A stretch of 64,000 nt of DNA from a virus: the IMG/VR virus record IMGVR_UViG_3300027899_000012, positions 1 to 64,000 of that record; one strand, 5' to 3'. This document shows positions 831 through 33,701 of the stretch, piece after piece. The position numbers were made by a program, and so were the translations under genes. Each line of letters begins with the position of its first letter. Positions within the stretch are counted from its first letter, which is position 1. The notes under the pieces are model-generated. The model ran no database searches, was not told the DNA's origin, and saw only the letters and a list, made by a program, of their open reading frames with translations.

Positions 831-898
831 GCGTATCGACGCTGAAAACAGGCAAGGCGAACGAAGGACACGTAGGGACCAGGAACACGACACATTTC

Positions 899-1734: not shown

Positions 1735-1779
1735 TCGCGCCGCCCGAAGAACGCTTCGGACGATACCGCGTGTGTATCG

Positions 1780-14694: not shown

Positions 14695-14698
14695 GGTC

Positions 14699-16681
14699 TT
14701 ACACCGTGGCGTCGAATGGATCGAACATGGGGAAGCTGTCGGAGCGCAGAACCGATCCCAGGCTGATGTACTGACTGGTGACGTGACTGGCTTCCGTTGC
14801 TTGAATCACCTGTGTCCAGGTCGTCCCCCAGGCTCCTCCGCACATCCAGATCGTCATACGACAATCGGAAGGACGCCGGTTGATGATCACCTCGTATTGC
14901 GTGTCCGCGACGATGCTGCCAACAGGACCGCTTCCAAGTGACGTGGCAACAGCCCCCGTCAGGCGAAACAGCCAAGGCTGACCGGCACTCAGGTAGATCA
15001 TGTAGCCGTTCTGTCCGGTGGCAGCGTAGGTTCCAGGCTGCGATGCGATGAACAGCACGTACTGCTCGTTCACGCTCACGGTACCTGGGCGCATGAAGAA
15101 ATGCCAAGTGCCGAACGCTTGCGAGCTTGGCCTCGACGCGGCCCCGTGGCCCGCTCCGATGTGCTTCATGCTGCGCCGACCCGTCGCGCTCTCCACGCAG
15201 GCCCAGGTGTCGCCGTACAGGGTCCATGGACCGATCTGCCCACCCGCCGCAACGCTCGCGGTCAGCGTCACGGGCACGTCCTCCAGGGTCTCGCGCAGGA
15301 TCAATCGCTGCGCCCACTGCAGATACTCTGTACGAACCTGAGCCGCTGTGAGAGCACGATTGAACATGCGTTCCTGTTTCGCCGCGATCTGAACCGCGAC
15401 GCCAGGGTTGCCATAGATCAGGCTTCCACCAGCGAGGTTCGGGGTAGTTGCAGGGACGGGTAGTCCAGCACCAGCAAACGTGAGCGCAACCTCTTCCCCG
15501 TCAACATACAGCTTCAAACGTCCCGCGTTTCCGACGCCTGCTCCATCGAACACGATAGCGACGTGCTGCTGCGTTCCCGTGCGCCACTGAGTTGAAGTAG
15601 TCGTAGCGGTGAACGTCACGCCACCCACAACCCATGTGATCGTGAGTGGTTGAACGGCGGCAGATGCAGCAACGTTGGACAGAACGATGAGATCCGCCGG
15701 ACCCTTCCCGAAGATGTAGGACAGCGCCGGAATGTTCCCCGGTCCCGTGTCAATCACCGTCTCGTAGGTGAACGCCGCCACGCTGTTGAACGCCGTTACG
15801 TCTCCCTGGTTCAAAGAGCATGCAGACGAAAACAGCATCCCCTCGTCGTTCTGCCCCGGCACCGGAATGCCAACGATGGTCCCCGGATAGCTGCCGACGA
15901 GGTCACGCACGGTCGTTGCGTTGATCCGCTTGAAGTCTGTGTCGAGCACGATGCCAGCCGCAGCGTACTCGCTGGCGCGCTTCGCGGGATACTGGTAGAC
16001 GAAGTTCTTGCGGGCGAGGTTCTTGACCCAGCCTTCCTGCAGAAACTCGTCCCAGAGTTGGGCGTGTTGGGCTCCGGTCAGCACGAGGTCGCAGACGCCT
16101 GCCAGCAGAACCGTTCCGCCGAATCCCTGCCCACCACCACCGGCACCGATACGAAAGTCGCTGAGTTGATTGACGACGGTCAACGTGGTGATCCCGCACG
16201 GGACTCCGTCCACGTAGAGAGTCGTGCCGTTGACAACGCCTGACTGGTACGACATGGCGAACAGATGCAGCAGCCCGGTTGGACCCTCGACGAACGTGGA
16301 AGCTCGCCACAAGCCAGAGTTCCAGTCGTACACACCGAATGCTCTCGGCTCTGCTGCCGGGTTGAATCCGAAGGTGTAGGCGTTCTGCTTGTTCAGGATG
16401 GCTTGGTACGCGGCTGTGGCCGACTCTGTCCTGCACCCCACAGCGAAGATCGTCCCGGTGTTCAGTTGAAGGGCAACCGGATTCCCAGGCGACACGTAAT
16501 TCGCTCCCGCGTTGGGTGTCCACAGCCCGTCCCCTCGATCCGTGTCCTTCCACAGCGGAGCCCCCGTGATCGCTAGAGCACCGAGAGCGCTGCTGCCCTG
16601 GTCGATGAGCGTGCCTCGCTTGAGGGTCGCGTACAGGGGGAGGTGCGATGTGGCTTTGAGGTAATCGATCAGCTTGCCCAT
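14699..16681 (-). CDS. Multi-LamG domain protein
   Basis: 660 residues with three LamG-type units: TTLYVDGVPCGI (about 165-177), RLKLYVDGEEVAL (about 390-402) and a C-terminal sandwich around 520-640. Each unit is followed by a helix of the A..R...W type. No signal peptide or anchor, as expected for a phage-type adhesin assembled on the particle. Separated by 14 bases from the upstream gene and 4 from the downstream one. Confidence 0.65.
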   Translation of the reverse strand: MGKLIDYLKATSHLPLYATLKRGTLIDQGSSALGALAITGAPLWKDTDRGDGLWTPNAGANYVSPGNPVALQLNTGTIFAVGCRTESATAAYQAILNKQNAYTFGFNPAAEPRAFGVYDWNSGLWRASTFVEGPTGLLHLFAMSYQSGVVNGTTLYVDGVPCGITTLTVVNQLSDFRIGAGGGGQGFGGTVLLAGVCDLVLTGAQHAQLWDEFLQEGWVKNLARKNFVYQYPAKRASEYAAAGIVLDTDFKRINATTVRDLVGSYPGTIVGIPVPGQNDEGMLFSSACSLNQGDVTAFNSVAAFTYETVIDTGPGNIPALSYIFGKGPADLIVLSNVAASAAVQPLTITWVVGGVTFTATTTSTQWRTGTQQHVAIVFDGAGVGNAGRLKLYVDGEEVALTFAGAGLPVPATTPNLAGGSLIYGNPGVAVQIAAKQERMFNRALTAAQVRTEYLQWAQRLILRETLEDVPVTLTASVAAGGQIGPWTLYGDTWACVESATGRRSMKHIGAGHGAASRPSSQAFGTWHFFMRPGTVSVNEQYVLFIASQPGTYAATGQNGYMIYLSAGQPWLFRLTGAVATSLGSGPVGSIVADTQYEVIINRRPSDCRMTIWMCGGAWGTTWTQVIQATEASHVTSQYISLGSVLRSDSFPMFDPFDATV

Positions 16682-16695
16682 GGTTCGATGCTACC

Positions 16696-17790
16696 TCACG
16701 TCGAGAGTTCCGACAGCAATCGGTTGTGAAACACCGATACCTGCTGCGGCGTCATCGGCAGTGGCCACACCGATGCGTGCAGCATCTTGGCTGTCGTGCG
16801 CCCCAGAAACACGCCGTCGCCGCCGACGTAGGTCGTGGTGCCCCCACCATCGAGCGCCCCGGTTGCAGCCGCGCTTCGCACCAGCAACCCATCCACGTAG
16901 AGCGACGCGATGCCCGTTGCGCCGACGTAGGTGCCCATAACCGTGTGCAGACCACCATCCGCCAGATCGATCCCCGCTGCGGAGATATACCTACCGAATC
17001 CAGTTCCCCCAACGTAGAACGTCGGGATGCGCCGACCCCCACCGTCAAGCTCTGCAGATAGCGACCATCCGGCGGTGCCCGTGCAGACCTTGCCCATCAG
17101 GCCGGGGTAGTTCACGGTCTTCTGCAACCCGACGAACTGCACGACTGCCGTGATGTCCGTGAGCGCCGGAAGGTCAGTGAGGCAGCGAAGGTTCACACCA
17201 GCCGCACCGTTGAGCGCAACGCCTCGACGCAGGCTGATGGAAGGGGTGAGCATCGTGGGAAACGTGGCCGGGGTGAGCCCGTCGCCGCACTGCACGTTGG
17301 TCGAAACGCTTCCGATGTTTCTGGTGAGGCACAGGGACGGGATGGCTTGCAGATCATCCGCATCCCAGGACTGTCCAGCCCCAAGCACGCCCTGATACAG
17401 ACCTATCTCCGCGTCGGTCGCGACGAACAGCCCGGTGTCGCCCTGTTGCCATGCGTTGTTGACCAGACCTGTCCACCGGACTGCGCCGCCACCGTAGATT
17501 CTCGGCGCGAACGTGCCGTCCGTTTTCTGCCACACCACGATCCTGTACGTTCCGCCGATGGTCAGACCGTTCTGGTATGCGTCGGTCGCTCCCCCAGTGG
17601 ATACTGCGTGCAGAACCTGCGTGCCGCTGCCACCTGGGCGACTGCCAGCGATCTTGGACAACGTCACGGCGGCTGCTGTGTAGGCAGCAGCGGTGGGAGC
17701 TTCCATGTTGCCGTCCACGACGGGATCTCTGGTCGCATCTTCCTCCAGGTAAATCGACCGCAAGGGCAAGTAGATCAGCGGGCGGCTCAT
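16696..17790 (-). CDS. CBM-like plus LamG domain protein
   Basis: 364 residues. The N-terminal part (about 20-140) resembles a carbohydrate-binding module of the type found before LamG domains (GNMEAPT, YRIVVWQKTDG). The C-terminal part has the LamG hallmark ASLYVDGLLVRS (about 300-312) and ends QVSVFHNRLLSEL. Start ATG overlaps the upstream stop (ATGA). Confidence 0.6.
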   Translation of the reverse strand: MSRPLIYLPLRSIYLEEDATRDPVVDGNMEAPTAAAYTAAAVTLSKIAGSRPGGSGTQVLHAVSTGGATDAYQNGLTIGGTYRIVVWQKTDGTFAPRIYGGGAVRWTGLVNNAWQQGDTGLFVATDAEIGLYQGVLGAGQSWDADDLQAIPSLCLTRNIGSVSTNVQCGDGLTPATFPTMLTPSISLRRGVALNGAAGVNLRCLTDLPALTDITAVVQFVGLQKTVNYPGLMGKVCTGTAGWSLSAELDGGGRRIPTFYVGGTGFGRYISAAGIDLADGGLHTVMGTYVGATGIASLYVDGLLVRSAAATGALDGGGTTTYVGGDGVFLGRTTAKMLHASVWPLPMTPQQVSVFHNRLLSELST

Positions 17791-18455
17791 TGGGGCGTGA
17801 TCTCCTGGGCCATGTCCTGCTGGTAATCGTCCAAGGCTTCCTCTGCGCTGAATGCGAAGTTGAACACCCTGAGAGTCTTGATCCGAAGTCCGGCTCGGGC
17901 CGCTCGCACAAAGTTCTCAGACAGAAAATTGAGCGGTGCGTTGACGGCTTCCAACTTCGCCGGAAGCGTTCCCGTCGAGTGTGACACTCCCACGGGCTGA
18001 CCGTTCAGGTACAGACCAAGCGTCGGGCCTGCGCCGTTGAATACCCACGCGATGCGGTAGGCGGTGTTCGCCAGGATGACTGCCGTCGTTCGGTCCGTGC
18101 TTGTGTTTCCAGCGGCCACGTTCGTGATGAACGAAAACAGGTAGGAAGACTCGATGTCGAACTCCCAAGCGCGAGATCCCGCTGCTCCGAACCGGCCGAA
18201 CAAGATGCTTGCGTTCACGATGTTGGCAGGCGTCACCAGATCGATCACCCAGGTGGCTTGCGTTGCCCCGTTCAGCACTCCGTGACCAGAAGCGAAGCTC
18301 ACGTCGTCGGTGTTGTCCGCGCTCACCAACAACCCCCTGTCGATGACCGGCGTGCCCCTGACTATTCCGCCCAGATCCGTGACTGCCAGCGTGTTGTAGA
18401 AGTCACAACGCCAGATCATCCCGTCGCCCGCAACGTGTCCTTCCTGAAGGCTCAT
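17787..18455 (-). CDS. Single LamG domain protein
   Basis: 222 residues forming one LamG/concanavalin-like sandwich, with YRIAWVFNGAGPTLGLYLNG (about 132-151) as the diagnostic strand-turn. It ends in a Glu/Asp-rich helix (EEALDDYQQDMAQE). Coupled by ATGA to genes on both sides, so the array is probably one transcript. Confidence 0.65.
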   Translation of the reverse strand: MSLQEGHVAGDGMIWRCDFYNTLAVTDLGGIVRGTPVIDRGLLVSADNTDDVSFASGHGVLNGATQATWVIDLVTPANIVNASILFGRFGAAGSRAWEFDIESSYLFSFITNVAAGNTSTDRTTAVILANTAYRIAWVFNGAGPTLGLYLNGQPVGVSHSTGTLPAKLEAVNAPLNFLSENFVRAARAGLRIKTLRVFNFAFSAEEALDDYQQDMAQEITPQ

Positions 18456-19870
18456 TCGTACACCGCCGTGACGTATGCGCTCGCGCCCGTGATGATGAAG
18501 TACAAGCCCGTGTAGGTATCTCCCCCGACCTCGATGGAGACGGGAGAAGCATTCGCTGCAAGGTTCGTGTTGACGATCATGTTTCCGGCAGCAGGCGCAG
18601 CCACCGTGTCGTGGACGACGATTGTCGCGGCGTTGTTGCCCGTGTCAATGATGATCCTGTGCAGACGCCCTGGCCCAATCTTGATGCAAAGCCCTGCCGT
18701 GGCCTGCATCAGCTTGATCATAGGAGAGGTGGACTCGCGGCCCAGGCGCGTGATCGAGCCCGACCACGTCTCCATCGAAGCCGACGTGCCCAGTCCGAGC
18801 GCCAGGAAGGTCGCGGGCAAGTGCTGCGTGCCCGACAGGGGGGCCGTCGTTCCGTTGAAAGTGTGGATCAGGTTTCCATCGATGATGAAGCGCGCCTTGG
18901 AGATCGTCCAGACCACCTCGTAGGCATGACTGTTCTGGTCCACCACGTACTGGTTCACGTCACCGTTGAACGCGCCGCTCGCGACGGTTCTGCCGACTCG
19001 CGATCCGCCGACGTAGCAACTTAGGTTCAGCACGCCTGCCGCGTCCACGTCGAACGTGTAGCCGTCCACCGGGGCCAAGGGAGAGCCCGTCGTGGTCATC
19101 GGACCCCAGATACGTGTTGCGTTCGCGACGACGACCGTGGGCAAACGCACACGCTGGTAGGACCGATGCGCGTTGAGGTTGGTGTACCTCGCTCGCCGCA
19201 CGGTCTGGATCTGCGAGTGTGCGGGGTTCGTGGTTCCGGTCACAAGCGTCACGACGCCAGCGGTCACAATCGAAGCCGTGGCTGGTGCGCCGCCACCGCC
19301 AAGCAGAGCTACCTGCCAGAAGTTTCCGTCGATGCCTTCCGCGACCGTGCCGAACATCGTGCCCACGAGCCGGTAGGGCTGGTTCACATCCTGAAATCCG
19401 TGCGGGCTCATGCGAGCTTCGTCACCGAAGACACTGTACTGCCCGTAGGAAGCGACTCGCAGGTTGTTGTGCGCGTCCGTGGCCCTCGGAAGCGGCTCTG
19501 TGATCGGACACAGGAAGCCCGCGATCTTCACACCGGTCGAGATCGCTGCACCCAGGTTCACCACGCGGATGCGCCAGTACGCTGAGACTGCCTTGACCGT
19601 CGTGCCGATGGGTCGTCCGGGGACGAAGTCGAGCAGATCCGAGATCGTGGCCGTCACGGCCAAGGGGTTGTCATCCTGCTCGATGTACACGCTTCCAGGC
19701 TGGCCCATGGTGACCGTGGCCTGCAGAGCCGCGACCCCCAGCGTGCTCTTCCATGCCCCGGTGAAGCTGCCGCCGATGGCAATGTTCGCCGTGCTGCTGT
19801 TGCCAGCATCGACTTGCACGTCCTGAACGACAGCCACCGACCCTGCGCCGACGATTCCACCAAGGTGCAT
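18452..19870 (-). CDS. LamG-domain protein with beta-rich N-terminus
   Basis: 472 residues. The N-terminal 110 residues are beta-rich and contain GSVYIEQDDNP, similar in style to the first gene of the array. The middle (about 220-400) is a LamG unit with RFIIDGNLIHTFNG. The C-terminal 80 residues form another small beta domain. Start ATG follows TAGGAGG, which overlaps the previous stop codon. Confidence 0.6.
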   Translation of the reverse strand: MHLGGIVGAGSVAVVQDVQVDAGNSSTANIAIGGSFTGAWKSTLGVAALQATVTMGQPGSVYIEQDDNPLAVTATISDLLDFVPGRPIGTTVKAVSAYWRIRVVNLGAAISTGVKIAGFLCPITEPLPRATDAHNNLRVASYGQYSVFGDEARMSPHGFQDVNQPYRLVGTMFGTVAEGIDGNFWQVALLGGGGAPATASIVTAGVVTLVTGTTNPAHSQIQTVRRARYTNLNAHRSYQRVRLPTVVVANATRIWGPMTTTGSPLAPVDGYTFDVDAAGVLNLSCYVGGSRVGRTVASGAFNGDVNQYVVDQNSHAYEVVWTISKARFIIDGNLIHTFNGTTAPLSGTQHLPATFLALGLGTSASMETWSGSITRLGRESTSPMIKLMQATAGLCIKIGPGRLHRIIIDTGNNAATIVVHDTVAAPAAGNMIVNTNLAANASPVSIEVGGDTYTGLYFIITGASAYVTAVYE

Positions 19871-19879
19871 GGCGACCTC

Positions 19880-20920
19880 CTACGAGCCCCATCCGTACGT
19901 CACGTAGGCAGTCGTGAGAATTGCGTTATCTCCTCCATCGACAGAACATGTGGCTTGAAATTGCACAAACGGATGAGAATTACTCACGTCCCATGTGACT
20001 GCGATCTTCTGATCCAGATCGATGTTGAGTTTCATCCGCTCTGGTTCAACGCCTATCGTCCATGTACCAGCAGCACCGGCAACGGACGGGTTGTAGATCG
20101 GCAGGCTGTATTCGTCTGCCCCAGCAGAAGTGTGCTTGCCGAGACATCGAATCATGATCCCGGTCATGGCGTTGATGTCGAGATCGATCCACAGCGTGAT
20201 GCGAGTGTACCCTTGCAGAGGGATCTCCGGTCCAACGTCAACCCAGTTCGGCGTGGTGGTTGTGATCGTGATCGGACCACCAAGAGAAAACGGGGTTTGT
20301 ACGTTTCGCGACCAGAGAGGAGCCGTCTCGAACACGCGCACCGCGTTGCTCGCCGCGTCGTATCCCTTGACGTTGACGTACAGGTAGCCGTCCGCGTCGA
20401 TGTTGAACTCGCAGTAGTCTCCGTCCGATCCCGCAGAGTTGATCGGAACGTCTCGACGCACGGCAAGGATGTTCTCGCCCCAGTCGCCCGAGGTGTGCGC
20501 CGTATCTTCCTGGTACAGGCCCCAGGCGGATGGAAGACCGGGAGTCACGGCGATGCCCAGGTCCGTCAGGCCGAACAAACCCCGGGCTTCGATTGTGCCT
20601 GAAGCGGTCGGGTTGGTCCCGCCCGTGAAGCCGATCGTCACGTACACGTCCGGCGACTCGGAAATCACCCTTTTCGGATCGGGCATCACGTTGTTGGCGG
20701 TCTGAATCTCGTGCGTCCCGATCAGTTCGACCGTGCCGGTCTGAATGCGCCAGAGAAACAGAATCAGAGAAGTCGGGTTGCCGGTTGTGACCAGGTTCTG
20801 AACCCGGAACTCCACGATCGACATGTTCGCGGGAAGGGCAACGCCCGAAGCTGCTGCAGGCGGCCCGGGGGCGTCGGCAACGGCAGCAACCAGGGTTCGG
20901 ATCAGGGTCCAGGCGCTCAT
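19880..20920 (-). CDS. First gene of LamG array, beta-rich protein
   Basis: 346 residues, Thr/Val/Gly-rich and predicted all-beta, without a recognisable LamG strand motif. ATG 20920 is preceded by CCGGAG (8-base gap). As promoter-proximal member it may be the scaffold that attaches the following adhesins. It faces a plus-strand gene 100 bases away across a divergent promoter region. Confidence 0.5.
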   Translation of the reverse strand: MSAWTLIRTLVAAVADAPGPPAAASGVALPANMSIVEFRVQNLVTTGNPTSLILFLWRIQTGTVELIGTHEIQTANNVMPDPKRVISESPDVYVTIGFTGGTNPTASGTIEARGLFGLTDLGIAVTPGLPSAWGLYQEDTAHTSGDWGENILAVRRDVPINSAGSDGDYCEFNIDADGYLYVNVKGYDAASNAVRVFETAPLWSRNVQTPFSLGGPITITTTTPNWVDVGPEIPLQGYTRITLWIDLDINAMTGIMIRCLGKHTSAGADEYSLPIYNPSVAGAAGTWTIGVEPERMKLNIDLDQKIAVTWDVSNSHPFVQFQATCSVDGGDNAILTTAYVTYGWGS

Positions 20921-21431: not shown

Positions 21432-24400
21432 TCAGGCGCTTCGGAGGGCTGCGAAGGCGAAGTCTATCGGGTGAGGCAGCGCGACGCCTCGTTTGGAAGG
21501 CGCATTTCGGATGATGCCCGGTTTCCACCCGTTGGGAACGTAGGACCCCGTGGCGCGGCTACCGGCTCTCTTCCAGTACGCGTACCGTTGCATCGCCCCC
21601 TCCCACCGGATCGCTCTTTCCAGAGGGTGCATGTCGGGATCGTTCGGCCATCCCATCTGCTGGACGATCGGATCGGCCGCGTCGTCGGTGGCAGGCGCTG
21701 GATACTGCGGCCACCTTGGTGCCCAGGGGCGCACGTCGAGCCAAATTGGGGGGCCTTCGGGGTTCTTGAGCATCGTGCTCGTTCCCGGGAATTCAACCGC
21801 GATTACCGCGGCTTTTCGCTCGAACTTCGCTTCGGTCATGGGCAGCAGGTTTGCCCCTGCTTTCGCCTGGCCGTCGCCCCGCTCGGGATACTTGTATCGA
21901 AAACGCAGCTTTCTTTCATCCATGTCCCAGAAAATTCGTGGTCGAAATCGCCTCAGCACCTGCTCGTAGCGGCGAAGCCGGGTCAAGTCGAAAGCTCCTG
22001 CGTAGGTCGGCGTTCCGAGCAAGATGTACTTCGCCGGGCTGCGAACGACGGTCCAGAACAAGTTCGGGTCGAGTTCCAGGGTTGTGTACCCCCTCTTTTC
22101 GGCCGTTCGAGCCATCTGTCCAGCTGCAGCGTCTGCTTCTTCGAGACGCTTTCGTCGCCGCTGCTCTTTTTCCTCGGGACTGAGCTTCGCCTCCCTGGCG
22201 GCCGCTCGTTCGGCCTCGAAGCTTTCGGCGTACTCTCCGGTCTGCTTGGCAGAGACCGGCGGGAAGGGGGAAGGCGGCATCGCTGGGGGGGGCGCAGGCG
22301 CTTCGGGAGCCGCCGAAGGCATCGGAGCAGTGGCCGGGGCTGAAGGCGGCTCCTGGGGCTGCTGGGGCTCGGGGACATCGGGCTCCGCTTCGATCCGATC
22401 GAGCGCCTGCTCTTCGGCTTGACTGCCCGAAACGATCTCCACCATCTCGGGCGAAAGCTGTTCGACGAATTCGTCGATCTCTTCGATCTCGCGATTCCAG
22501 AAAGTTTCGACGGCTTCCGGCGGGATCTGCGTGATCGGTCTCGCCCCCTGCCTGGCGCGGGCTCGATCGCAAAGGCCCGACCACATGACCTTCGAGGCCT
22601 TGATCAACTCGTCGATCGTTTGCGGAGCCTTCCAGCCGGCGTCTCGCATTCGTTTTTCCATCTCGGCCGGGCAAGGAATCAGAGAGGAAAGCTGCAAGTC
22701 GAAGTGCCGGACGATCAAACCCTGAGTCTGCGACTTGAGGCTTCTTCGTCGCCGGTCCCACAGCACCCTGATCGCTCTTCGGACAACGCACTCGGAATCG
22801 GTGCCGTATTTCTCGAACCAGTACCGCTTGGTGGCATCATCGTGAACGATCGTGCCGGCGGCGTTGAATGTCAGCAGGGCCGGATCGAGCAAGTGCTGCA
22901 TTCCGGCCCGTCGATCGAGCGTCGGCGTGAAAGCCGCCTGCACGTCGCTGAAGGGAACGCCTTCGGCCGTGAGCATTGCCGAGAGCCTGGCTTGGATTTG
23001 CTCCTGCAAGTTGGCCGCCGGCAGATCGGCCGTGATGGCTCGAACGTCGATCGTCTTGCCCTCCCACGAAAACTTCGGGAAACGATCGACGAAGAAATTT
23101 TCGATGCGCTTGGCCGAAGCTTCCAGATCGGCCATGTCCTTGGCTCCCGCTTGCCCCCGGGCCTTCGCCTGGTCGAACTGCTGGCGCCACTGCACCAGCC
23201 TGACCAGGATCTGCTCGGTCCACTGGTCAAATCTGACTCGGCTCGGGCGCTGTCCTTGAAGAGCCAGAATCCATCGCTGAAGCTCCAGGCGTTCGGCCGC
23301 CGGAAGTCCAACGTTCTCGTCCGTTAGCGGATCGGGCACGAAGAACCACGGGGGCAGGGTGTCCATGGCTGCGATGGCGATGTTGCCCCGGTTCTTGGCC
23401 GTCTTGTAGCCGGTTGCGGCCACGGCTCCGCCGTAGTCCTCCAGCCAAGCCATGATTTGTTCGACGTGGTGCTCCCGAACAACGCGCGCGTTCGGTGTGG
23501 ACGGAGTCTCAAACGAGATCCAGCTGTCCTTTCTCTCGGCCATGTCCCGGGTGAACTGCACGCTCGCCACGTCAAGAAGCTCGCCCAACCAGATCACGAG
23601 CGCTGCAGCTGCCGTCGGGCCCCGCGTGTTCCAGAATTCGTCATAGAGCCATCGAAGCTCTTCGAGAACGTACGCGTCATCGGCAGTTTCGGGGGCGATC
23701 TGCGCGTACGACAGGATGGGAGCCATCTGGGGTCCTTCCCATCGGTTGGCGCGTCCTGCCCACCAAGGAAGCCGGGACATTTTCCCTATCCGGAAGGTGG
23801 TCCAAAGGTGCCTGGCCCTGGCATCAGCCATCGCATTGAGACCCTTGGCGTACTCGGCCGTGTCTTGAGACTGCTCGGCAGCGGTCACGATCTGCTGGGC
23901 CGCCATTTCTCGATTCTTGGCTTCGATGCTGAATTTCGTGGCCGAAACTCCCGGCAAGTACGCGAGCATGGCGTCGCCAGCTTCGTAGGCCCAGAACGGG
24001 CTGGCAATGACTTGCTCTTTTTCGGGCTCGGACAGGGGAGTGACTCTCTTGGCTGCAGGGCCGCCGCCGCCGGGGGCCGCAGCGAGGGGTTCGGCCTCGA
24101 CGATCTCTGGTTCTTCAAGCGGGCTCTGGCTTCGAGGTTTCATGGAAGCAAGCTCTTCGGCCGTCATTGCAGTCTGCCGGTTGGTCACGCGGTAGACAGC
24201 AGCCGAGAACGCAGCCGATTTCTGAGGAGCGATCTGGATGTACGTCTCGGTCGTGCGAATCGAAAAGTGCCCCAGCATGTCTCGCACGTCCGTCAAAGGC
24301 ATCCCTCCGAGCGTGGAAGCCGTGGCTGCGTAGTGGCGGAAAGCGTGAGGGTGGACACGCTTCATCTCGTGATTGCAGACGCCGGTCTTGCACTGCGGCA

Positions 24401-25841
24401 AGCACTCGGTCAAGCGCCGCACCTCTCCCGTCGCCACGACCCTGACGCGTGCTCGGAGCGCGATGCGATCGATCATGGCTCGCACGCCGGACGTGTCCAG
24501 CCCTTGTCTTGCGTCAGAAAGTGCTTTTTCAGGCTCCTTGTCGGGATTGTTGCACCCCCACCTGGCAAGAGAGGGAACCAGGGGCGCTTCGGGATCCTGC
24601 AGAGCTTTGGCATACAGGGCGTTGTACGTGGGAACGCGAAGCGCGCTCTCGTTGACCATGGTCTTGGTCGCTTCGGCTTCGAGCGCTCCGTTCAAAAGAG
24701 TCCACGCGTCCTTGATTACCCCTGCCATGGGTAGCAAACGAACGAAATTTCCCTTGCCAAGAACAGCGATGTTGAGCACTCCATCGACGACGCGCACGTC
24801 CGATCGAAGCAACCCCGCGAGTTCTTCTGCCCGAACCCCTAAGTACGTGAGCATCGTGAGAGCGAAGAAGTCACGGCGGTTTTCGAGTTGCGCACCGAGC
24901 GCGGCATTGAGCATAGAGCGCACCAAAGGAATCGTCAGACCACGCTGCAGGCCGGATGCTTGAGCGTTCGCTCTCTCAAAGCGAAGTCTCTTGGTCCACA
25001 CAACCGCGGGTGATTTCCAAGGATTGAACACGAGCGCGGGCTCGTCGGGGGTTGTGGGCTTTGCCATCTCGCCCCACACGGCGCTCAAGGCAGAAAGGTG
25101 CGTGCAAACGCTCGAAACGGCAAACGCAGAGCGACCGAGAATCGCATATCGATACGTGTACGGATCCTGCTCGCGCACCGTCCAGTAGGATCCTTCTTCC
25201 CTTCGGATCTCGTTTGCGTTCGGCATGCGCACGATTTGGCGGCACGAGCGAATGAGCCTTCCCATCATCCTGTGAAGCTCGAACACGTTGAGTTCCTGGC
25301 GCGGATCGGTCGAGACCCGAACGAGCCTGTCACGAAGATCCCTCGGGAGAGCTTCCGCGATCTGCACGATGTTGGCTTCGCCGTACTGGCGGCACGACTT
25401 CTCCAGCGCTTCGTAGATGCCCACAAAGTCGTTTCCGAGCGCGGCAACGAAGTAGCGGCGAACGTCGGGACCTGCCTTGTCGCCGTGAAGCCACAACGCG
25501 TACTCGCTCGCTGTGTCGATGCTGATCTCGCGCGGAGCAAGCTCTCGCCCCCAGTTCGCGATGCTGTAGTACGACCACAGTTCCAAGGACTTCAGGTAGG
25601 TGCGGATCGTGTTGTTCTTGTCCTGCGGGCGGTCCTTGCCTCGCCTCTTGCCTCTCGCAGAAGACCCCGAAGCGACCCCGCCAAGCGTCAGCAGCCTCGC
25701 TACCAGGCGCTCGACAGCGGCTGCGTACCTGCTCTTGGAGTACGCCGCGCTCGGTACTTGAGACACGAGCGAATCAGGAAAGATTCCCAGGGCGTCGGGA
25801 CGGTTCGCCAACGCAAGCTTGTCGCTATCTTTCGGGTCCAT
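21432..25841 (-). CDS. Giant tyrosine recombinase with long C-terminal extension
   Basis: 1469 residues, four times the usual integrase length. Residues about 295-545 are a complete tyrosine-recombinase catalytic domain: R337 (GVRAEEL), K363 in a GKGNFVRLLP hairpin, H499-x-x-R502 (HPHAFRH), H525 (LGHFSI) and nucleophile Y534 (TTETYIQI). A C480/C484/C489/H491 cluster just before HxxR looks like a zinc knuckle. Residues 1-290 could be the core-binding region. The 920-residue extension has no motif I recognise, a Pro/Ala-rich linker near 1200-1240 and a charged coiled coil after it. TAGTCT lies 7 bases before its ATG. Confidence 0.8.
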   Translation of the reverse strand: MDPKDSDKLALANRPDALGIFPDSLVSQVPSAAYSKSRYAAAVERLVARLLTLGGVASGSSARGKRRGKDRPQDKNNTIRTYLKSLELWSYYSIANWGRELAPREISIDTASEYALWLHGDKAGPDVRRYFVAALGNDFVGIYEALEKSCRQYGEANIVQIAEALPRDLRDRLVRVSTDPRQELNVFELHRMMGRLIRSCRQIVRMPNANEIRREEGSYWTVREQDPYTYRYAILGRSAFAVSSVCTHLSALSAVWGEMAKPTTPDEPALVFNPWKSPAVVWTKRLRFERANAQASGLQRGLTIPLVRSMLNAALGAQLENRRDFFALTMLTYLGVRAEELAGLLRSDVRVVDGVLNIAVLGKGNFVRLLPMAGVIKDAWTLLNGALEAEATKTMVNESALRVPTYNALYAKALQDPEAPLVPSLARWGCNNPDKEPEKALSDARQGLDTSGVRAMIDRIALRARVRVVATGEVRRLTECLPQCKTGVCNHEMKRVHPHAFRHYAATASTLGGMPLTDVRDMLGHFSIRTTETYIQIAPQKSAAFSAAVYRVTNRQTAMTAEELASMKPRSQSPLEEPEIVEAEPLAAAPGGGGPAAKRVTPLSEPEKEQVIASPFWAYEAGDAMLAYLPGVSATKFSIEAKNREMAAQQIVTAAEQSQDTAEYAKGLNAMADARARHLWTTFRIGKMSRLPWWAGRANRWEGPQMAPILSYAQIAPETADDAYVLEELRWLYDEFWNTRGPTAAAALVIWLGELLDVASVQFTRDMAERKDSWISFETPSTPNARVVREHHVEQIMAWLEDYGGAVAATGYKTAKNRGNIAIAAMDTLPPWFFVPDPLTDENVGLPAAERLELQRWILALQGQRPSRVRFDQWTEQILVRLVQWRQQFDQAKARGQAGAKDMADLEASAKRIENFFVDRFPKFSWEGKTIDVRAITADLPAANLQEQIQARLSAMLTAEGVPFSDVQAAFTPTLDRRAGMQHLLDPALLTFNAAGTIVHDDATKRYWFEKYGTDSECVVRRAIRVLWDRRRRSLKSQTQGLIVRHFDLQLSSLIPCPAEMEKRMRDAGWKAPQTIDELIKASKVMWSGLCDRARARQGARPITQIPPEAVETFWNREIEEIDEFVEQLSPEMVEIVSGSQAEEQALDRIEAEPDVPEPQQPQEPPSAPATAPMPSAAPEAPAPPPAMPPSPFPPVSAKQTGEYAESFEAERAAAREAKLSPEEKEQRRRKRLEEADAAAGQMARTAEKRGYTTLELDPNLFWTVVRSPAKYILLGTPTYAGAFDLTRLRRYEQVLRRFRPRIFWDMDERKLRFRYKYPERGDGQAKAGANLLPMTEAKFERKAAVIAVEFPGTSTMLKNPEGPPIWLDVRPWAPRWPQYPAPATDDAADPIVQQMGWPNDPDMHPLERAIRWEGAMQRYAYWKRAGSRATGSYVPNGWKPGIIRNAPSKRGVALPHPIDFAFAALRSA

Positions 25842-25854
25842 GCGGGCGAGACTA

Positions 25855-26583
25855 TCATGGGTACGCTTCGGTCAAGTGCATCTTGCGAATTTCCTCGTTC
25901 GCTTCCTTGCACAAAGCTTCGGCTTCTCGAAGGCTTCCGCGGACTTTCAGAAGCTTTTCCTCCGTCTTGCGCGCGCCCGTTCCCACCACGAATACCTGGC
26001 CGCCGGCCAGAACGGGCTTGGTGACCAGAACGCCCATAGCGATCGCTCGCGTGATGAGATTTTCGAGCCTCTCTCGCTGGTAGGTGTCCCGGGAGCTTCG
26101 AGCTTTCCGTACTCGATGCCGCTTCGCTTCGGGCTCGGCCGTGTCCTCTACGTCGGCCGTCACGTCGTCCTCGACAAGAAGCATCGGCCTGGTGTCGAGA
26201 AAGACGCCCTGCGCCCATTGTCTGAAGCGCATTTCGTCCTCGGACGTGGCCGATGTCTCGGCCGCGAGAACGACGATGATTTCAAGAACTTCCTTGAGTT
26301 CCTGTACCCAGGTGTTCTCGATGGTCGCGCCCAGGCCGTTGAGAAGAGCCTGGATGTGCTCTCTTTGCCGGGCGTCGAGCCGCTGAGCGAAGATCGGAGA
26401 GTTGGCGGCACTTCGACAGGCGACGGCCAGGGCCACCATTCCCGAAGCGGCTTGAAGTGCCCCGGCGGCGCAGCCGTGGAAAGTCATGCTGATTTCGGGG
26501 ATGATCTCGGTTTCCTTGAGGACACTCAAGGCGTAGGAGATGAGGCGCGCGTCCACGTGGCGCCGGACGATGCCATCTGACAT
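25855..26583 (-). CDS. Hypothetical protein upstream of giant recombinase
   Basis: 242 residues from ATG 26583, chosen because a promoter -10 ends 7 bases upstream; the ATG four codons earlier would lie inside that promoter. Helical N-terminal half, an acidic stretch around 140-150 (VEDDVTADVEDTAEPE) next to a basic KRHRVRKARSSR, and a C-terminal coiled coil. 13 bases before the recombinase gene. No family recognised; a DNA-processing partner is possible from context. Confidence 0.5.
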   Translation of the reverse strand: MSDGIVRRHVDARLISYALSVLKETEIIPEISMTFHGCAAGALQAASGMVALAVACRSAANSPIFAQRLDARQREHIQALLNGLGATIENTWVQELKEVLEIIVVLAAETSATSEDEMRFRQWAQGVFLDTRPMLLVEDDVTADVEDTAEPEAKRHRVRKARSSRDTYQRERLENLITRAIAMGVLVTKPVLAGGQVFVVGTGARKTEEKLLKVRGSLREAEALCKEANEEIRKMHLTEAYP

Positions 26584-26590
26584 GGCGCTT

Positions 26591-26620
26591 AGCATGCACC
26601 ATGCATGTGATAAGAGTCAA
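26591..26620 (-). promoter_or_regulatory. Leaderless-type promoter
   Basis: Minus strand TTGACT (26620-26615), 18 bases, CATGCT (26596-26591), then 7 bases to ATG 26583. The -35 overlaps the TGA stop of the upstream gene (CGT TGA CT). Confidence 0.45.
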
Positions 26621-27384
26621 CGGGGGCGTTCGGCGGGCCAGGAAAAGCACACGGGATGCATCCCTGGCAAGCGAACCTTGACCACAACCGCCGTGCTCGG
26701 GCGGCCTCGGGGGTTGAGCCGCACTATCACCGGAGCGTCCACGGCAACCTCGCCGCCGAACAGAATAGCCATCTTCTTGGCTGTCGTTCCCACCTTCTGC
26801 TGCGTTTCCAGGGCGAACGCATCGGCGGAGGTGTGCGGGGAAAAAGCGGCATCGCTCACGACGATGGGGTTGCAGGCCCCGGTGAGAAGGCAAGCCTTGC
26901 TGGTGATGCCCTGCAGGACGGGACTTCGCACGTCGTAGCCCTGCCCGACGGCGTCTTTCAAAATACCGCCTTCGCGGAGAGCAAGATCGTTGGCGATTGC
27001 CATGCCTTGCAGGATCTGCTTGTTGTCCACGGCCGCCATGAACGAGTGCTCGATTTCGAGCGATTTGGCGATCGCACGCGCGTCGTTCTTTTTCACGTGC
27101 CACGTGAGTGTGGGGGGAAGGGGCAGTCTTTCCTCTCGCAGCAGAAACGCCAGCCCGGTCGTTTCTTGAAACGCAACAAACTCTCGAACCAGCACGCGCA
27201 CCAAGGCTTCGCTCACCCACCCGAACTTCCGACCCTCGTTTCGCGCGGCAGTCGTGAGAAACTCGATCGTGCTGTCCGTGCAATCGTGCAAGCGAAACGC
27301 GATGCTGCAGCCCCGTTGAACCACGAGCCGGATGATCTCCGACGTGCTCACGTCTTTGATGCGATCGGCGCCGACAACCAGCAT
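26617..27384 (-). CDS. Hypothetical protein coupled to SNF2 helicase
   Basis: 255 residues from the ATG that overlaps the helicase stop (TGATG). An ATG 29 codons upstream, inside the helicase gene, is the alternative. Mixed alpha/beta, no Cys clusters or membrane segment. The coupling implies it is made in proportion to the helicase and may be its partner. No motif recognised. Confidence 0.5.
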   Translation of the reverse strand: MLVVGADRIKDVSTSEIIRLVVQRGCSIAFRLHDCTDSTIEFLTTAARNEGRKFGWVSEALVRVLVREFVAFQETTGLAFLLREERLPLPPTLTWHVKKNDARAIAKSLEIEHSFMAAVDNKQILQGMAIANDLALREGGILKDAVGQGYDVRSPVLQGITSKACLLTGACNPIVVSDAAFSPHTSADAFALETQQKVGTTAKKMAILFGGEVAVDAPVIVRLNPRGRPSTAVVVKVRLPGMHPVCFSWPAERPR

Positions 27385-29720
27385 CAGGTCGCGGGCGTCG
27401 CTGGGCCCATGAGCGCTTCGAGAAACTTCGGAAACACGCTCTTCGGGTTCTGAATCGCGATCTGCTGACATAGCCACACCTCTCCGTCTGTAAGGGGACG
27501 CTTCGCTGCGCGAGCGAGCATGGGTTCGATGAACTTCGAGACGCGCTCGGGAAGGCTTCCGGGCATCTTCCACCCATCGAGCGCAAGCTTCGCGGACACG
27601 CGCTGCAGTTCTGTGGCCTTCGGGTACTCTTTTCGGGTCCCCTCGGGTTGTGCGTCGAGCGCTCGATCGATGACGAATTGTTTCTGCAAAGCCGACGCGA
27701 TGACGAGAGCTTCGATGGATCCGTCCACGACCAGGTACTGGATGAGAACGGGAAATTGCTGCCCAATGCGATGGATTCGATCTTCCATCTGAAGCAGAAC
27801 CCACGGCAGCCAGTCGCCTTCTGCGAAGACCATCAGGTCGGCCGCCGTGAGCGTGATGCCAACTCCGGCCGCGTGCATGCCCGCGATGAAAACTCGGATC
27901 TTCGGGTCGGTCTGGAAGCGATCAACGACGGCCTGCCGGTCCTTGACGGGCGTCTCGCCGTACAGGGAAACAGCCATCGGCCCGAACGCTTCTTCCAGGG
28001 CGCGAATCACCGATTGATGGTGCGCTGCGATGACGACCTTTCGAGGGGAAGCTTCCAGCGCATCGCGCACGTGTTCGACAACGAGCGGGACCTTCGCCAG
28101 GGCCGTGGCTTGGCGTTCCTTGGCGATGGCTTTCGCGTCGATTCCCGACAGGTCGGTCTGAAGTCGAGTCAAGGCCTGCTCGAACGCGAAGGAATCTCCC
28201 ACGGCCTCGGCGAGCATCGCTTCGAGAACGGTATCGCTCATGGACGGCACGAGCTTGAGCCAGGCTTCGCGCTCGGCGTCGGCTGCGTCGCGGATCTTGT
28301 CGCCGGACAGGGGAAGGATCTGGCGCGTCTTTTCGGGAAGGTCCGCTAGCACGTCTTTCTTGAGTCGGCGGATCATCAGGACCGAACGGAGCCGCTCCTG
28401 AAGCTCGTCCAGGTTGGTGGCCCCGTCGAAGTTCATAACCTCGATCTGCTTGCCCCGGCCGCCCTTCACGTAGATTTTGTCGCGCGTGGGACCGCAGTAC
28501 CGGAACAGAAAGTCGCCTTCCTTGCGGAACACGTCGGGCGCGAGAACGCTGATCAACGCCCACAGGTTCCGGACGCGGTTCGGGATCGGGGTTCCGGTCA
28601 GGGCCAGGATTCGATTGGATCGCTGCGCGATTCCCAGGGCCGCTTCTCGCTTTCGGCCTCGTCGGACTCCGAGCACGCGTTCGGACGTTGACGCCTTGAG
28701 GTTCACGAACCGGTGGGCCTCGTCGAGGATCAAGAGGTCCCAGGTGGTGGCCATCAGGATCTGCCAGAGGTTTCCGGCGCGCTCGGCACCGGCGAGATTG
28801 TGCGATGTATCTCCGATGACATGCGTCCAGCCGAAGGGTTGATCCTGCAGGATCACCTGCCCGACGCCTCCCGGCGGGACCCGAACGATGATCGGCCCAG
28901 GATGGCTGGCGAACACAAGCTCCCCGGGCGAATAGCCCACGGAGTACAGGACGCCCTCGGGAAAATCGGGTTTCGGAACGTCGGGCCACGCAACCCACAA
29001 GATGCGCTGGCGCTGATCGAGCTTCACCAGCTTGGCGAGGCGCTTGCCTTCCCTGTCCGGTGCGATCTTCGCGGAAACGCTTTCCGCGGTACGTGCACGT
29101 GTCGAAATCAGCCGCTCGGCATTTGTCACGCACCACTCGCGACCCGGGGCCGGGTCGGGAACGTCCTGGCCTTCTTCGCAGAGAGTCACCCTGGGGTTGT
29201 GAGCGTCCCAGAGCATGATTTCCTTGCGCCAGTTGGCTTTGAGAGACGCCGGACAGATCACCAGGATCCGGGATGTCGCCGACATCGTGTTGGCAATCGC
29301 GATCGCCTCAATCGATTTCCCGATCCCCATCTCGTCGCCGATCAGGACTCCCTTGCGGGTCGCGGCGTAGGCCACCGCCGCCAGCTGATACGGCCGCAGG
29401 ACGCGTCCGGGGGGCAGGGGCACTCTCACCATCGCCGAATCGGCTCGGGACGCTTCCAGCTGCCCAGGCGTGCGAGCAACCAGGGCTTTCGCGGAGGGGC
29501 TCAACTCCAGGCCCGTCTTGGACGCAATAGTCGGGTCGCGGGTGAACCAGACGAACGACGGAAGGCCAGCTTCGCAGGCGGAGCATCTCGGGGGGCAGCG
29601 CTGATCGCCGGTGGACCAGTGGAAGACCATGCCGTCTTTCTTGAGCTTGGCGCGGAGGTCGGCGTCCGTGTACGGAACGAGCACGTAGAACAGGCTCGCC
29701 TTGGCTTCGATGACGCTCAT
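27384..29720 (-). CDS. SNF2-family DNA translocase/helicase
   Basis: 778 residues from ATG 29720 (ATGA overlap with the previous stop). Motif I GDEMGIGKS (about 128-136), motif II DEAH (about 333-336), motif III LTGTP, and the C-terminal lobe with MEDRIHRIGQ (motif VI) are complete. About 120 residues are inserted between motifs Ia and II, and the N-terminus has a RCPPRCSAC cluster that may bind zinc. The overall layout resembles SMARCAL1/HARP-like single-chain SNF2 proteins. It likely remodels DNA or displaces proteins; role in replication, recombination or defence evasion is open. Confidence 0.85.
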   Translation of the reverse strand: MSVIEAKASLFYVLVPYTDADLRAKLKKDGMVFHWSTGDQRCPPRCSACEAGLPSFVWFTRDPTIASKTGLELSPSAKALVARTPGQLEASRADSAMVRVPLPPGRVLRPYQLAAVAYAATRKGVLIGDEMGIGKSIEAIAIANTMSATSRILVICPASLKANWRKEIMLWDAHNPRVTLCEEGQDVPDPAPGREWCVTNAERLISTRARTAESVSAKIAPDREGKRLAKLVKLDQRQRILWVAWPDVPKPDFPEGVLYSVGYSPGELVFASHPGPIIVRVPPGGVGQVILQDQPFGWTHVIGDTSHNLAGAERAGNLWQILMATTWDLLILDEAHRFVNLKASTSERVLGVRRGRKREAALGIAQRSNRILALTGTPIPNRVRNLWALISVLAPDVFRKEGDFLFRYCGPTRDKIYVKGGRGKQIEVMNFDGATNLDELQERLRSVLMIRRLKKDVLADLPEKTRQILPLSGDKIRDAADAEREAWLKLVPSMSDTVLEAMLAEAVGDSFAFEQALTRLQTDLSGIDAKAIAKERQATALAKVPLVVEHVRDALEASPRKVVIAAHHQSVIRALEEAFGPMAVSLYGETPVKDRQAVVDRFQTDPKIRVFIAGMHAAGVGITLTAADLMVFAEGDWLPWVLLQMEDRIHRIGQQFPVLIQYLVVDGSIEALVIASALQKQFVIDRALDAQPEGTRKEYPKATELQRVSAKLALDGWKMPGSLPERVSKFIEPMLARAAKRPLTDGEVWLCQQIAIQNPKSVFPKFLEALMGPATPAT

Positions 29721-30121
29721 TTTCGAGCCTTTTTCTTCGTTCCGACGCCAGTGCCCTGGCATTTGGGGCACATGTTGGCTGCGGTCATGAAAGTGACGGC
29801 GCGAAACGAAGGATGGTTTGGATTTCTCCCCGTTCCCTGGCAGTGTGCACAAGGGGGCCCCTTCTGCTTTCGCAGGTGCGGAGTGAGAGCAGGCGGCGGC
29901 CGCTGGTTCTTGTCGTACACGGGAGGGGCGACGGGCTCCGGCGGGATCTCCTTCACGTCAAAGTCTTCCAGCGCCAGGTGGTATTTCGCGCACGCCTTCT
30001 GCCGTGCGTCGAACCACGTCTCCGCTTCCACGATTCCGATCGTGTTGATGAGCGTCAGGGGGCGGCCGTCTTGGGTTTTCGCGCTGGCAAACCTCTGAAA
30101 AACCTTGTACTTGCGAATCAT
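29717..30121 (-). CDS. CxxCxGxG zinc-finger protein
   Basis: 134 residues from ATG 30121 (ATGA). Two DnaJ-type zinc half-sites, CAHCQGTG (about 98-105) and CPKCQGTG (about 121-128), follow a small alpha/beta domain and a Pro-rich linker; a basic tail KKKARK ends it. Coupled to the helicase downstream. Such Cys-rich modules bind unfolded protein or nucleic acid; which applies here is unknown. Confidence 0.6.
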   Translation of the reverse strand: MIRKYKVFQRFASAKTQDGRPLTLINTIGIVEAETWFDARQKACAKYHLALEDFDVKEIPPEPVAPPVYDKNQRPPPALTPHLRKQKGPPCAHCQGTGRNPNHPSFRAVTFMTAANMCPKCQGTGVGTKKKARK

Positions 30122-30939
30122 TCCGGGCCTCCCACGGTTGCGGCGTTGTCGTACGATGGCATCCACTCGCGAGCGTTCGTCCAGAGCGACTTCTCGCCCT
30201 TGGCTGCGAATTTTCGCCAGGCGCGCATGGCCTCGAACGGCAGCAGAATTCCCGTGTGCGCTTTCTGGCAGACATCCTCGCCACGAAGCAGCCAGTCTGA
30301 CAGCGTGTGCGGATCGAGCGCGAATCGACTCCCGGCCATGTGCAGGTCGAGGTTGCCTCGAAGTAAACCGAACCCGTCGATCGCGCACATGAGCGCGAAT
30401 CCGAACATTCCCGCCGCCGCGCGAGGGGGCATCACGTTCAAGGCGATCGCTTCGGGATCGCCGAAGTTGCGCTTGCAGACCCCCGCGGCGGGGCTGAAAA
30501 CCGAGCGGCAGGCGATCGGCCGGACTGCGTACGCGGCGCAGGATCTCTTGTGCGTGGGTTGATCTTCAGGACCGATCAACGCAGCGCACGGGATCTTCTT
30601 GGCGCAGTACGAGGTCAGGTCCCCCTTGCTGATCCGGTTGGCCGTTTCGCACACGTCGAGCGCGACTTTCGCCCCCTGCTTTCGCATCCAGATTCCCCAC
30701 AACGCCGCCTCGGGCACCGTCACCCCCACCTGCTGGTGGCAGCAGTAGGCGCAACCCGGACCGCACTCGGGCTTGGCGTTGTCGGGCAGGTCCGAGATCA
30801 GGCGGTTGGTGAGGGTTGTGAGGTTCGCGTAGGATTCGGCCTGCGCAGCGAGAACGCGCCGGGGTTCCTTGCTGGCGATGGCCCGCTGCATCCGGGAGTA
30901 CTCGCGAAGGGCCAGGGCGGTGATATCGCGGCCGTTCAT
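30118..30939 (-). CDS. YkgJ-family cysteine-cluster protein
   Basis: 273 residues. CGPGCAYCCHQQVGVTVPEA (about 59-78) followed by Cys near 113 (CAKKIPC), 132 and the YAVRPIACRS box (about 135-144) is the YkgJ/UPF0153 pattern, a putative Fe-S or zinc-cluster fold found in many bacteria. ATGA overlaps on both sides. The biochemical role of this family is not established. Confidence 0.75.
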   Translation of the reverse strand: MNGRDITALALREYSRMQRAIASKEPRRVLAAQAESYANLTTLTNRLISDLPDNAKPECGPGCAYCCHQQVGVTVPEAALWGIWMRKQGAKVALDVCETANRISKGDLTSYCAKKIPCAALIGPEDQPTHKRSCAAYAVRPIACRSVFSPAAGVCKRNFGDPEAIALNVMPPRAAAGMFGFALMCAIDGFGLLRGNLDLHMAGSRFALDPHTLSDWLLRGEDVCQKAHTGILLPFEAMRAWRKFAAKGEKSLWTNAREWMPSYDNAATVGGPE

Positions 30940-31508
30940 TTCTTGCCCCTCTTCACGCTCGGGTTTTCCATGACGGCCACGATTTTGTCCAGGCGAACGC
31001 TCACGTTCCTTCCCACTTCTTCCGCCTCGTACCCCCGGACATCATGCAGGATCACCCAGTCGCCGCCGTCGATCGCGCACGACGCGAAGTCAAAGGCTCC
31101 CGTGCTCACAATAGCGCGCCATCCCCTCGGCACCGCGGGTCCTTCGCACGCTGCCAGAAGCTCGACGGGGTAGATGTTCATGCACCGGTCGCAGTGTCCA
31201 ATGCGCTTAGGGGGCATCTTAGCCCAACAGATAGTGCACTCCCCGGGACCGGCGAGCACTCGGGTAAGATTACCCGGGTTGCCGACTTGCTGCTCAACGG
31301 GCTTGGGGTCTAGGTAAACCTGCACCCACATGCCATCGGTAGGCAGCTTGGTGCGATCTTTCTGGGCGACGGTGTAGGTGGTTGCGTAGCCGCGCGCCAT
31401 CCACGTCTCCGCGGATTTGCTCCAGTACTCGTACGAGCCGGACTTGTCGGCGGCGCTCCCCCCCTTGCGAATGACCCACACGAGCTTGCTTGTTTGCTTG
31501 TTGCTCAC
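30936..31508 (-). CDS. Hypothetical protein with zinc-ribbon core
   Basis: 190 residues from a GTG overlapping the previous stop (GTGA). Middle section has CTICWAKMPP...HCDRCMN (about 90-110), a probable zinc ribbon, with a beta-rich N-terminus. Part of the long train of coupled minus-strand genes. Function unknown. Confidence 0.5.
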   Translation of the reverse strand: MSNKQTSKLVWVIRKGGSAADKSGSYEYWSKSAETWMARGYATTYTVAQKDRTKLPTDGMWVQVYLDPKPVEQQVGNPGNLTRVLAGPGECTICWAKMPPKRIGHCDRCMNIYPVELLAACEGPAVPRGWRAIVSTGAFDFASCAIDGGDWVILHDVRGYEAEEVGRNVSVRLDKIVAVMENPSVKRGKK

Positions 31509-31723
31509 GACATGCCTCCCAGTTCCCACAGTCGTTCCAGCGCCTTTTCAAACCCGTGCTCGTGAAAGTACGCGAGCGCTTCCGCTTGGGCCTCGCAGGA
31601 CACGACCCGGTTGTGGGGCTCGCGCTTGTTGTGGATTGCCAGGGCGAGGTCGAGCACCAGGCGTTCGTCCACGCTGGGTTGCTCAACCATCCAGAGCTGC
31701 ATCTGCCGGGCCTTGTCGGTCAT
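31505..31723 (-). CDS. Small helical protein
   Basis: 72 residues, almost entirely helical with HEHGFEKALERLWELGG at the end. ATG overlaps the upstream stop (ATGA). No motif recognised. Confidence 0.45.
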   Translation of the reverse strand: MTDKARQMQLWMVEQPSVDERLVLDLALAIHNKREPHNRVVSCEAQAEALAYFHEHGFEKALERLWELGGMS

Positions 31724-31920
31724 CGTGCGCTTCCCTTCTCAAGCGCCACGCGCTCGCGTTCGGAGGTTCGGATCGCGCTGCGAAGCTCGCGAAGGGCTCG
31801 CTGGCGGTTTCGCTCCCACCTCGGGTTGGCGTTCGGGCCCTCGGCCTCGATCTTGTCCACCTCGCTTCGCAGCCAGGCGAGCCCGCGATCGACCGCCTCT
31901 ACGTTGAGCGCAAGGGCCAT
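31720..31920 (-). CDS. Small helical Arg-rich protein
   Basis: 66 residues from ATG 31920, 2 bases after the upstream stop. Two amphipathic helices, the second Arg-rich (RNRQRALRELRSAIR), typical of a small dimeric helical hairpin. Function unknown. Confidence 0.45.
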   Translation of the reverse strand: MALALNVEAVDRGLAWLRSEVDKIEAEGPNANPRWERNRQRALRELRSAIRTSERERVALEKGSAR

Positions 31921-31922
31921 GG

Positions 31923-32300
31923 CTACGCGCCCTCCTTGGCGTTCACCCAGACGAGCGTTCCGCCCCTGGGAAGCTTCTGGGGCATGTCCTCGACGCGAAG
32001 GCCCATGGCCTCGGCGATCTTGGGCAACCACTCGATCCACATCGCGTTGGTGACGCGCCCTTCGCCCGGATCCCCGTACCCGCGATTCAAGTCTTTGTGC
32101 CCGTTGTAAGACTCGCTGGTGGCGAGCATCCACTTGGGGCCGTAGTAGGACGAGCATCCCACGCCCGACCATCCGGTGTGCCCCTTGGTCTTGCACACGC
32201 ACACGCCGCCCTTGCGAATCATCACGTCCCTGTCGGTTCCCCAATCCACGCCGCAGGAATGCCGGGGCAGGATCTCACGGTCTTTTTTCGTCCACGCCAT
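31923..32300 (-). CDS. Hypothetical protein with Cys residues
   Basis: 125 residues from ATG 32300 (TGATG coupling). N-terminal part contains HSCGVDWGTDRD and CVCKTKGHTG; a metal site is possible. The sequence reads like a small globular domain. No family recognised. Confidence 0.45.
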   Translation of the reverse strand: MAWTKKDREILPRHSCGVDWGTDRDVMIRKGGVCVCKTKGHTGWSGVGCSSYYGPKWMLATSESYNGHKDLNRGYGDPGEGRVTNAMWIEWLPKIAEAMGLRVEDMPQKLPRGGTLVWVNAKEGA

Positions 32301-32605
32301 CACATGCCTTCCAATTCTGCGAACGCCATGTCGCTGTAACCGGCCCACTCTTCCTCGCTCACCTCGCAGCGCTCGCGCGCCAGCTTGTCGAACTCGCGCT
32401 GTTGCTTCGCGCTAGTCGGTCGGCGGACGGGAACGCGCACCTCCGCTCCGCACGTGTCGCACCAGCACGTTGCCCAGTCTCCGTGCAGAAAGCACACGTT
32501 CTGCTTGCCTCCGCACCCGGGCTCCAGGCACGTGCCCACGGTTTCGCCCTTGATGCCCAGGGCGAACAGGGTTGCGGATGGCAGGCTGCGAACGACCGCG
32601 CTCAA
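32300..32605 (-). CDS. Hypothetical zinc-binding protein, TTG start
   Basis: 101 residues. TTG 32605 is 6 bases after AAGGAGG and overlaps the previous stop (TTGA), so it is preferred to the upstream ATG lying inside the neighbour. Cys pattern CLEPGC...C...CWCDTC (about 27-53) suggests one or two zinc sites. The C-terminal half is helical. Confidence 0.45.
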   Translation of the reverse strand: MSAVVRSLPSATLFALGIKGETVGTCLEPGCGGKQNVCFLHGDWATCWCDTCGAEVRVPVRRPTSAKQQREFDKLARERCEVSEEEWAGYSDMAFAELEGM

Positions 32606-33665: not shown

Positions 33666-33682
33666 GTCGGTCTGTCCCTTCC

Positions 33683-33699
33683 CGCACGCCACGCGTGCG
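33683..33699 (-). promoter_or_regulatory. GTG-triloop leader hairpin
   Basis: Minus strand CGCACGC-GTG-GCGTGCG: perfect 7-bp stem, three-base loop, ending 17 bases before ATG 33665. It begins 2 bases after the upstream stop. Confidence 0.7.
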
Positions 33700-33701
33700 A
33701 T

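Follow-up and report, generated by a model that had tools for sequence, protein, structure and literature searches.

A viral tyrosine recombinase of 1469 residues with a C-terminal extension lacking recognised relatives

The gene, its reading frame and its family

In the 64,000-base window analysed here (positions 1 to 64,000 of the 90,242-base IMG/VR record IMGVR_UViG_3300027899_000012), we found a gene for a tyrosine recombinase that is real, well-formed and unusually large for this known superfamily and that carries an orphan extension. The gene occupied positions 21432-25841 on the minus strand and ran without interruption from ATG to TGA, encoding 1469 aa that included a 920-aa extension. 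The best explanation, to which we assigned a probability of about 0.55, is that the protein is a site-specific recombinase of the integrase type to which a helical domain has been added, and that this domain would bind a partner or accessory DNA.

A sequence-only reading of this DNA had described a tyrosine recombinase of this length with all six catalytic positions visible, and both points held. R337, K363, H499, R502, H525 and Y534 were each found at these numbers, in the correct order and context, giving the series by which the superfamily is recognised (R, K, H-x-x-R, H/W and a nucleophilic Y, in that order). The single minus-strand frame was also matched by four kinds of resource. The Pfam model Phage_integrase (PF00589) matched the catalytic domain at 6.6e-13, and further matches were obtained with the PHROGs integrase families phrog_1 (4.8e-14) and phrog_216 (1.1e-13), with the NCBIfam models XerC (7.3e-15), XerA (1.7e-13) and XerD (1.2e-11), and among PDB sequences, where the best match was XerD 1a0p (2.8e-7). 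The Pfam scan returned Phage_integrase plus one sub-threshold model and no others; a match to PF10090 (0.023), under the family cut-off, was disregarded. The identity as a tyrosine recombinase rests on more than motif spotting.

To judge the reading frame, we used a codon model trained on the record's other genes, with the recombinase gene excluded. The recombinase frame outscored the five alternatives in 28 of 28 windows of 100 codons, the model gave no frameshift signature along the gene, and codon bias was even from the catalytic domain through linker and extension to the C-terminus. Because codon bias is uniform through the frame and frame 0 is preferred along the whole gene, fusion of the extension to the recombinase by sequencing error is unlikely and was rejected. 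Neither a sign of such a fusion nor a match to a structural protein, the two findings named beforehand as damaging to the original description, was obtained. Neither internal repeats within the recombinase nor a second, paralogous copy elsewhere in the record was found.

The closest systems were XerC, XerD and XerA (TIGR02224, TIGR02225 and NF040815; PDB 1a0p and 5hxy), which gave the best HMM and PDB sequence matches and have the full R-K-H-R-H-Y set in common with the recombinase. These proteins have about 300 aa, whereas the protein described here has 1469 aa, with two internal insertions in addition to the 920-aa extension. Its XerC, XerA and XerD scores were far under the equivalog cut-offs (55 bits vs 335 for XerC/XerD), and this score and the length of 1469 aa both speak against a chromosomal XerC/XerD orthologue. 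Phage integrases (PF00589, phrog_1 and phrog_216) share the catalytic domain and the viral setting; unlike them, the present protein has no recognised arm-binding domain and has about 920 C-terminal residues added. Complex tyrosine recombinases are integrases with an N-terminal arm-binding domain (PMC8138268). The Pfam arm-binding models gave no match to the recombinase at E<=1, although a divergent arm-binding domain could escape them, and no Pfam core-binding model matched it either. Among plasmid proteins, the integrase of Aquincola plasmid A (321 aa) aligned over its full span with residues 243-545 at 25% identity (local E 1.4e-12), and the three-recombinase cluster of Agrobacterium vitis pTi_CFBP2681 gave the best plasmid E-value among the matches listed (4e-7). 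Other plasmid integrases also matched. Plasmid tyrosine recombinases shared the recombinase part only, and the long extension occurred in none of them.

The protein had been called larger than common integrases, and the size comparison agreed with this. When 115 genomes from a single bacterial class were scanned, the roughly 150 best-scoring Phage_integrase matches listed lay in open frames of 285-651 aa; since this list favours high-scoring canonical members, the size of the recombinase is unusual, and uniqueness is not implied.

Architecture and the orphan extension

All segments described below lie on the minus strand. Residues 1-295 (24957-25841) comprised an N-terminal tail and a putative core-binding domain, assigned by alignment to shorter recombinases. 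Residues ~76-290 were alignable to the core-binding regions of these proteins, with an apparent insertion of ~100 aa at about residues 120-230. The catalytic domain, with the six residues named above, covered residues 300-545 (24207-24944). According to the alignment, the core has a second insertion, which follows the K363 hairpin, precedes Box II and carries the Cys/His cluster that had been proposed to sit beside Box II. C480, C484, C489 and H491 were all present at these positions, forming the pattern C480-x3-C484-x4-C489-x-H491 (24369-24404) within the insertion before Box II. The cluster is a candidate zinc site, for which zinc binding would be a reasonable guess. Pattern scans combining the cluster with Box II returned 22 loci, all at chance level and none in a recombinase frame.

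The extension (~551-1469) began with a Glu/Pro/Ala/Gly-rich linker at residues 551-600 (24042-24191). The mid-extension, residues 601-1140 (22422-24041), was Trp-rich, Trp making up 3.2% of the extension, and is probably mostly helical according to a low-confidence model. An earlier suggestion of a Pro-rich hinge and a coiled coil was half borne out: the hinge (~1150-1197) was found within a Pro/Ala-rich segment at residues 1141-1197 (22251-22421), whereas in place of the coiled coil there was, at best, a possible charged Ala/Glu/Arg helix at ~1200-1250. Residues 1198-1469 (21435-22250) comprised this putative charged helix and then the C-terminal part. The structure prediction that had been recommended for the extension was run as a single-sequence AlphaFold2 model, which reached a pLDDT of 38 and a pTM of 0.24; this is very low confidence, and the fold was unusable.

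The extension had been said to contain no recognised domain, and we found no match to it in Pfam, PHROGs, NCBIfam or PADLOC. The recommended search restricted to the extension likewise gave no relatives in phages, plasmids, PDB or the profile databases: PDB sequences returned noise only, at E<=10, 50,697 phage records returned two chance-level matches only and 72,556 plasmids returned no match. In 2.9 million IMG/VR viral contigs and about 85,000 GTDB genomes, pattern scans detected no relative of any part; the viral contigs were scanned by pattern plus tblastn with the whole protein, the N-terminal half, the middle and the C-terminal parts as queries. A search of 754 further genomes from two bacterial classes with the extension as query, which had no possible positive control, gave no relative. 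Since the pattern scans detect close relatives only and a positive control was lacking, distant homologues may exist. One weak match in another genome (E 7.6e-5, residues about 1040-1210) was rejected as composition bias; it included the Pro-rich stretch and contained two stop codons. At the sensitivity reached, the extension is, as far as its sequence goes, an orphan. The full residue set in the N-terminal half and the lack of any family match in the remainder fit the earlier picture of an apparently active recombinase with a large unrecognised extension.

Neighbouring genes and the viral record

The recombinase was the final gene of a putative 17-gene operon, g39 to g23 (21432-35783, minus strand), with mostly ATGA-type 4-base overlaps. 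The operon consisted of small non-structural-type genes together with an SNF2 helicase, a grouping that argues mildly against the recombinase as a virion protein. The neighbours were as previously described, namely two genes without assignment and an SNF2 gene, all on the minus strand: g24 (246 aa, 25855-26595), which precedes the recombinase gene by 13 bases; the predicted gene g25 (255 aa, 26617-27384); and g26, a 778-aa SNF2-family phage DNA helicase (27384-29720; phrog_62, 4e-89). The helicase had relatives in 1,295 phage records; as a common phage helicase, it provides no evidence for a special recombination machine.

Past the recombinase, one opposite-strand ORF was followed by a separate run of lectin/lipase/glycosidase-like genes. 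This minus-strand array (11546-20920) contained Laminin_G_3 lectin-like, GDSL-lipase and weak glycoside-hydrolase-16 genes, which probably encode receptor-binding or glycan-acting proteins. For the 11.5-kb gene, the LamG-like look was judged by eye, as was that of a gene at record positions 86531-87796, which had no Pfam match. Two glycosyltransferase-type genes with PHROG and Pfam matches were located at 8245-10691 of the window, and further genes of this type, judged by eye, at 78964-82382 of the record.

Elsewhere, the record encoded RecE, RecT, SSB, a ParB-like protein, methyltransferases and glycosyltransferases. A six-frame search of the record for terminase gave no match, and the matches to families that were listed for some 100 predicted proteins included no portal, major capsid or DNA polymerase, one family scan being represented by 25 of its 59 families. 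A membrane segment was located at one end of several record proteins, a transglycosylase and an M15 peptidase among them; a single membrane-like segment was seen in g6, g9, g67, g73, g74 and g113. Either the record covers just a part of some larger phage, or it represents a little-known virus that may be non-tailed and contain a membrane.

Two tandem genes of 256 and 258 aa, 75% identical, open the record (window 1-1737). The record and the tandem repeat unit start at the same base, a coincidence that points to an assembly break within a longer array. These genes had no database match and possibly encode virion proteins; AlphaFold2 of the duplicated gene, a capsid candidate, gave a pLDDT of 30. 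In the left, possibly structural, block, positions 6343-6990 encoded a protein of 215 aa whose C-terminal part holds a DnaJ domain (2e-10). At record positions 69049-70179, a CcrM-like N6-adenine methyltransferase and a weak C-terminal Mrr-type nuclease-like segment formed one chain, and at 71730-72540, where most of the sequence is non-coding, a 26-base direct repeat occurred three times, two of these copies lying within a 67-base repeat.

Probable function and the alternatives

The results pointed to a phage-integrase/Xer-type recombinase that would integrate and excise the viral genome or resolve its multimers. The full catalytic set, the Phage_integrase, PHROG integrase and XerC matches, the alignments to plasmid integrases and the coherent codon usage are all in favour of the integrase reading. 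So are the position at the end of a non-structural operon with a helicase, away from the lectin-type virion genes, and the presence in the record of RecE, RecT, ParB-like and SSB genes as recombination-type accessory genes. Against it count the lack of a tRNA gene in the window and of direct or inverted repeats beyond chance near the recombinase gene; moreover, no integrated copy or relative from which att sites could be read turned up in the searches made, and no excisionase or repressor was recognised. The extension also counts against it, since a normal integrase has no need of 900 additional residues, and so does the lack of a match to the Pfam arm-binding models. From this evidence we infer recombinase activity, core-site binding and a role in integration.

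In the proposed mechanism, residues ~75-295 would close around the core site, and residues ~300-545 would carry out DNA cleavage and rejoining via Y534 through the standard strand-exchange pathway. Tyrosine recombinases of prokaryotes usually have 300-650 residues and rely on accessory domains of small size or on proteins of the host. The ~920-residue extension, held on flexible linkers, would stay outside the chemistry and, as our guess, might serve oligomerisation or the binding of accessory DNA or a partner, replacing the small arm-binding domains or directionality factors used elsewhere.

A different view of the extension is offered by the polyvalent injected proteins of phages, an established class of likewise very long, multi-segment proteins (PMC7824862). 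The protein would then be a product of the infected cell, or else travel in the virion and enter the host together with the DNA, with the recombinase as one module and the extension acting against the host or in DNA protection. Its size, its linkers, its orphan sequence and its tight coupling to the SNF2 helicase, g24 and g25 are compatible with this; however, the several domains expected of a polyvalent protein were not found, a second enzymatic domain being absent in the Pfam, PHROGs, NCBIfam and PADLOC scans, and we regard this explanation as unlikely.

The main functional alternative sharing the same chemistry is that the recombinase acts like Xer, resolving dimeric or multimeric genomes as they replicate, instead of integrating them. 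The top NCBIfam models were XerC, XerA and XerD, Pfam recognised no arm-binding domain, and RecE/RecT and a ParB-like gene are present in the same record, but the score of 55 bits stands against the XerC/XerD equivalog cut-off of 335 bits, and no dif-like repeat came to notice, though such a repeat could not be targeted specifically. We consider dimer resolution rather improbable.

Lower again we place the idea that the recombinase comes from large bacterial viruses of a lineage not described so far and that its extension is a new fold doing the architectural work of arm sites, of host factors or of directionality factors, which would make the protein a self-contained single-chain integration/excision enzyme; this is a doubtful proposal. 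It had been suggested earlier that the protein could be an integration, telomere-resolution or dimer-resolution machine of a new type. Integration was retained as the most likely role, whereas a new type of machine is possible but unsupported, the N-terminal half being Xer/integrase-like and the neighbouring helicase a generic phage one.

The recombinase adjoins the lectin, GDSL-lipase and glycosidase-like array, and it had a weak NCBIfam likeness to tyrosine-type DNA invertases (0.003-0.01). In principle it could switch host range by inverting or reshuffling the receptor-binding genes of Laminin_G_3 type found at 11.5-20.9 kb. This is very improbable: inverted repeats of at least 15 bases were absent from 10-31 kb, where four 14-base pairs were at the level of chance, and long inverted repeats were absent from the entire record.

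Telomere resolvases are phage tyrosine-recombinase relatives carrying extra domains, and the record is linear, as would suit a protelomerase making the hairpin ends of a linear viral genome. The Pfam scan, however, gave no telomere-resolvase match, long inverted repeats were absent at the record ends and elsewhere, and the Box II histidine, a recombinase trait and not a resolvase trait, was retained; this role, raised in the sequence-only reading, is hardly credible, and of the att-like or hairpin-like sites proposed for inspection, as of inverted repeats, none was found beyond chance. A topoisomerase IB is unlikely, since Box II reads H-x-x-R, the recombinase pattern.

Collectively, the protein is an active-looking enzyme with an extension larger than itself. 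It could be an integration system in one chain, or alternatively could couple recombination to another viral process. Almost nothing else in this virus record can be recognised, and the recombinase gives a useful landmark by which relatives of the record might be found.
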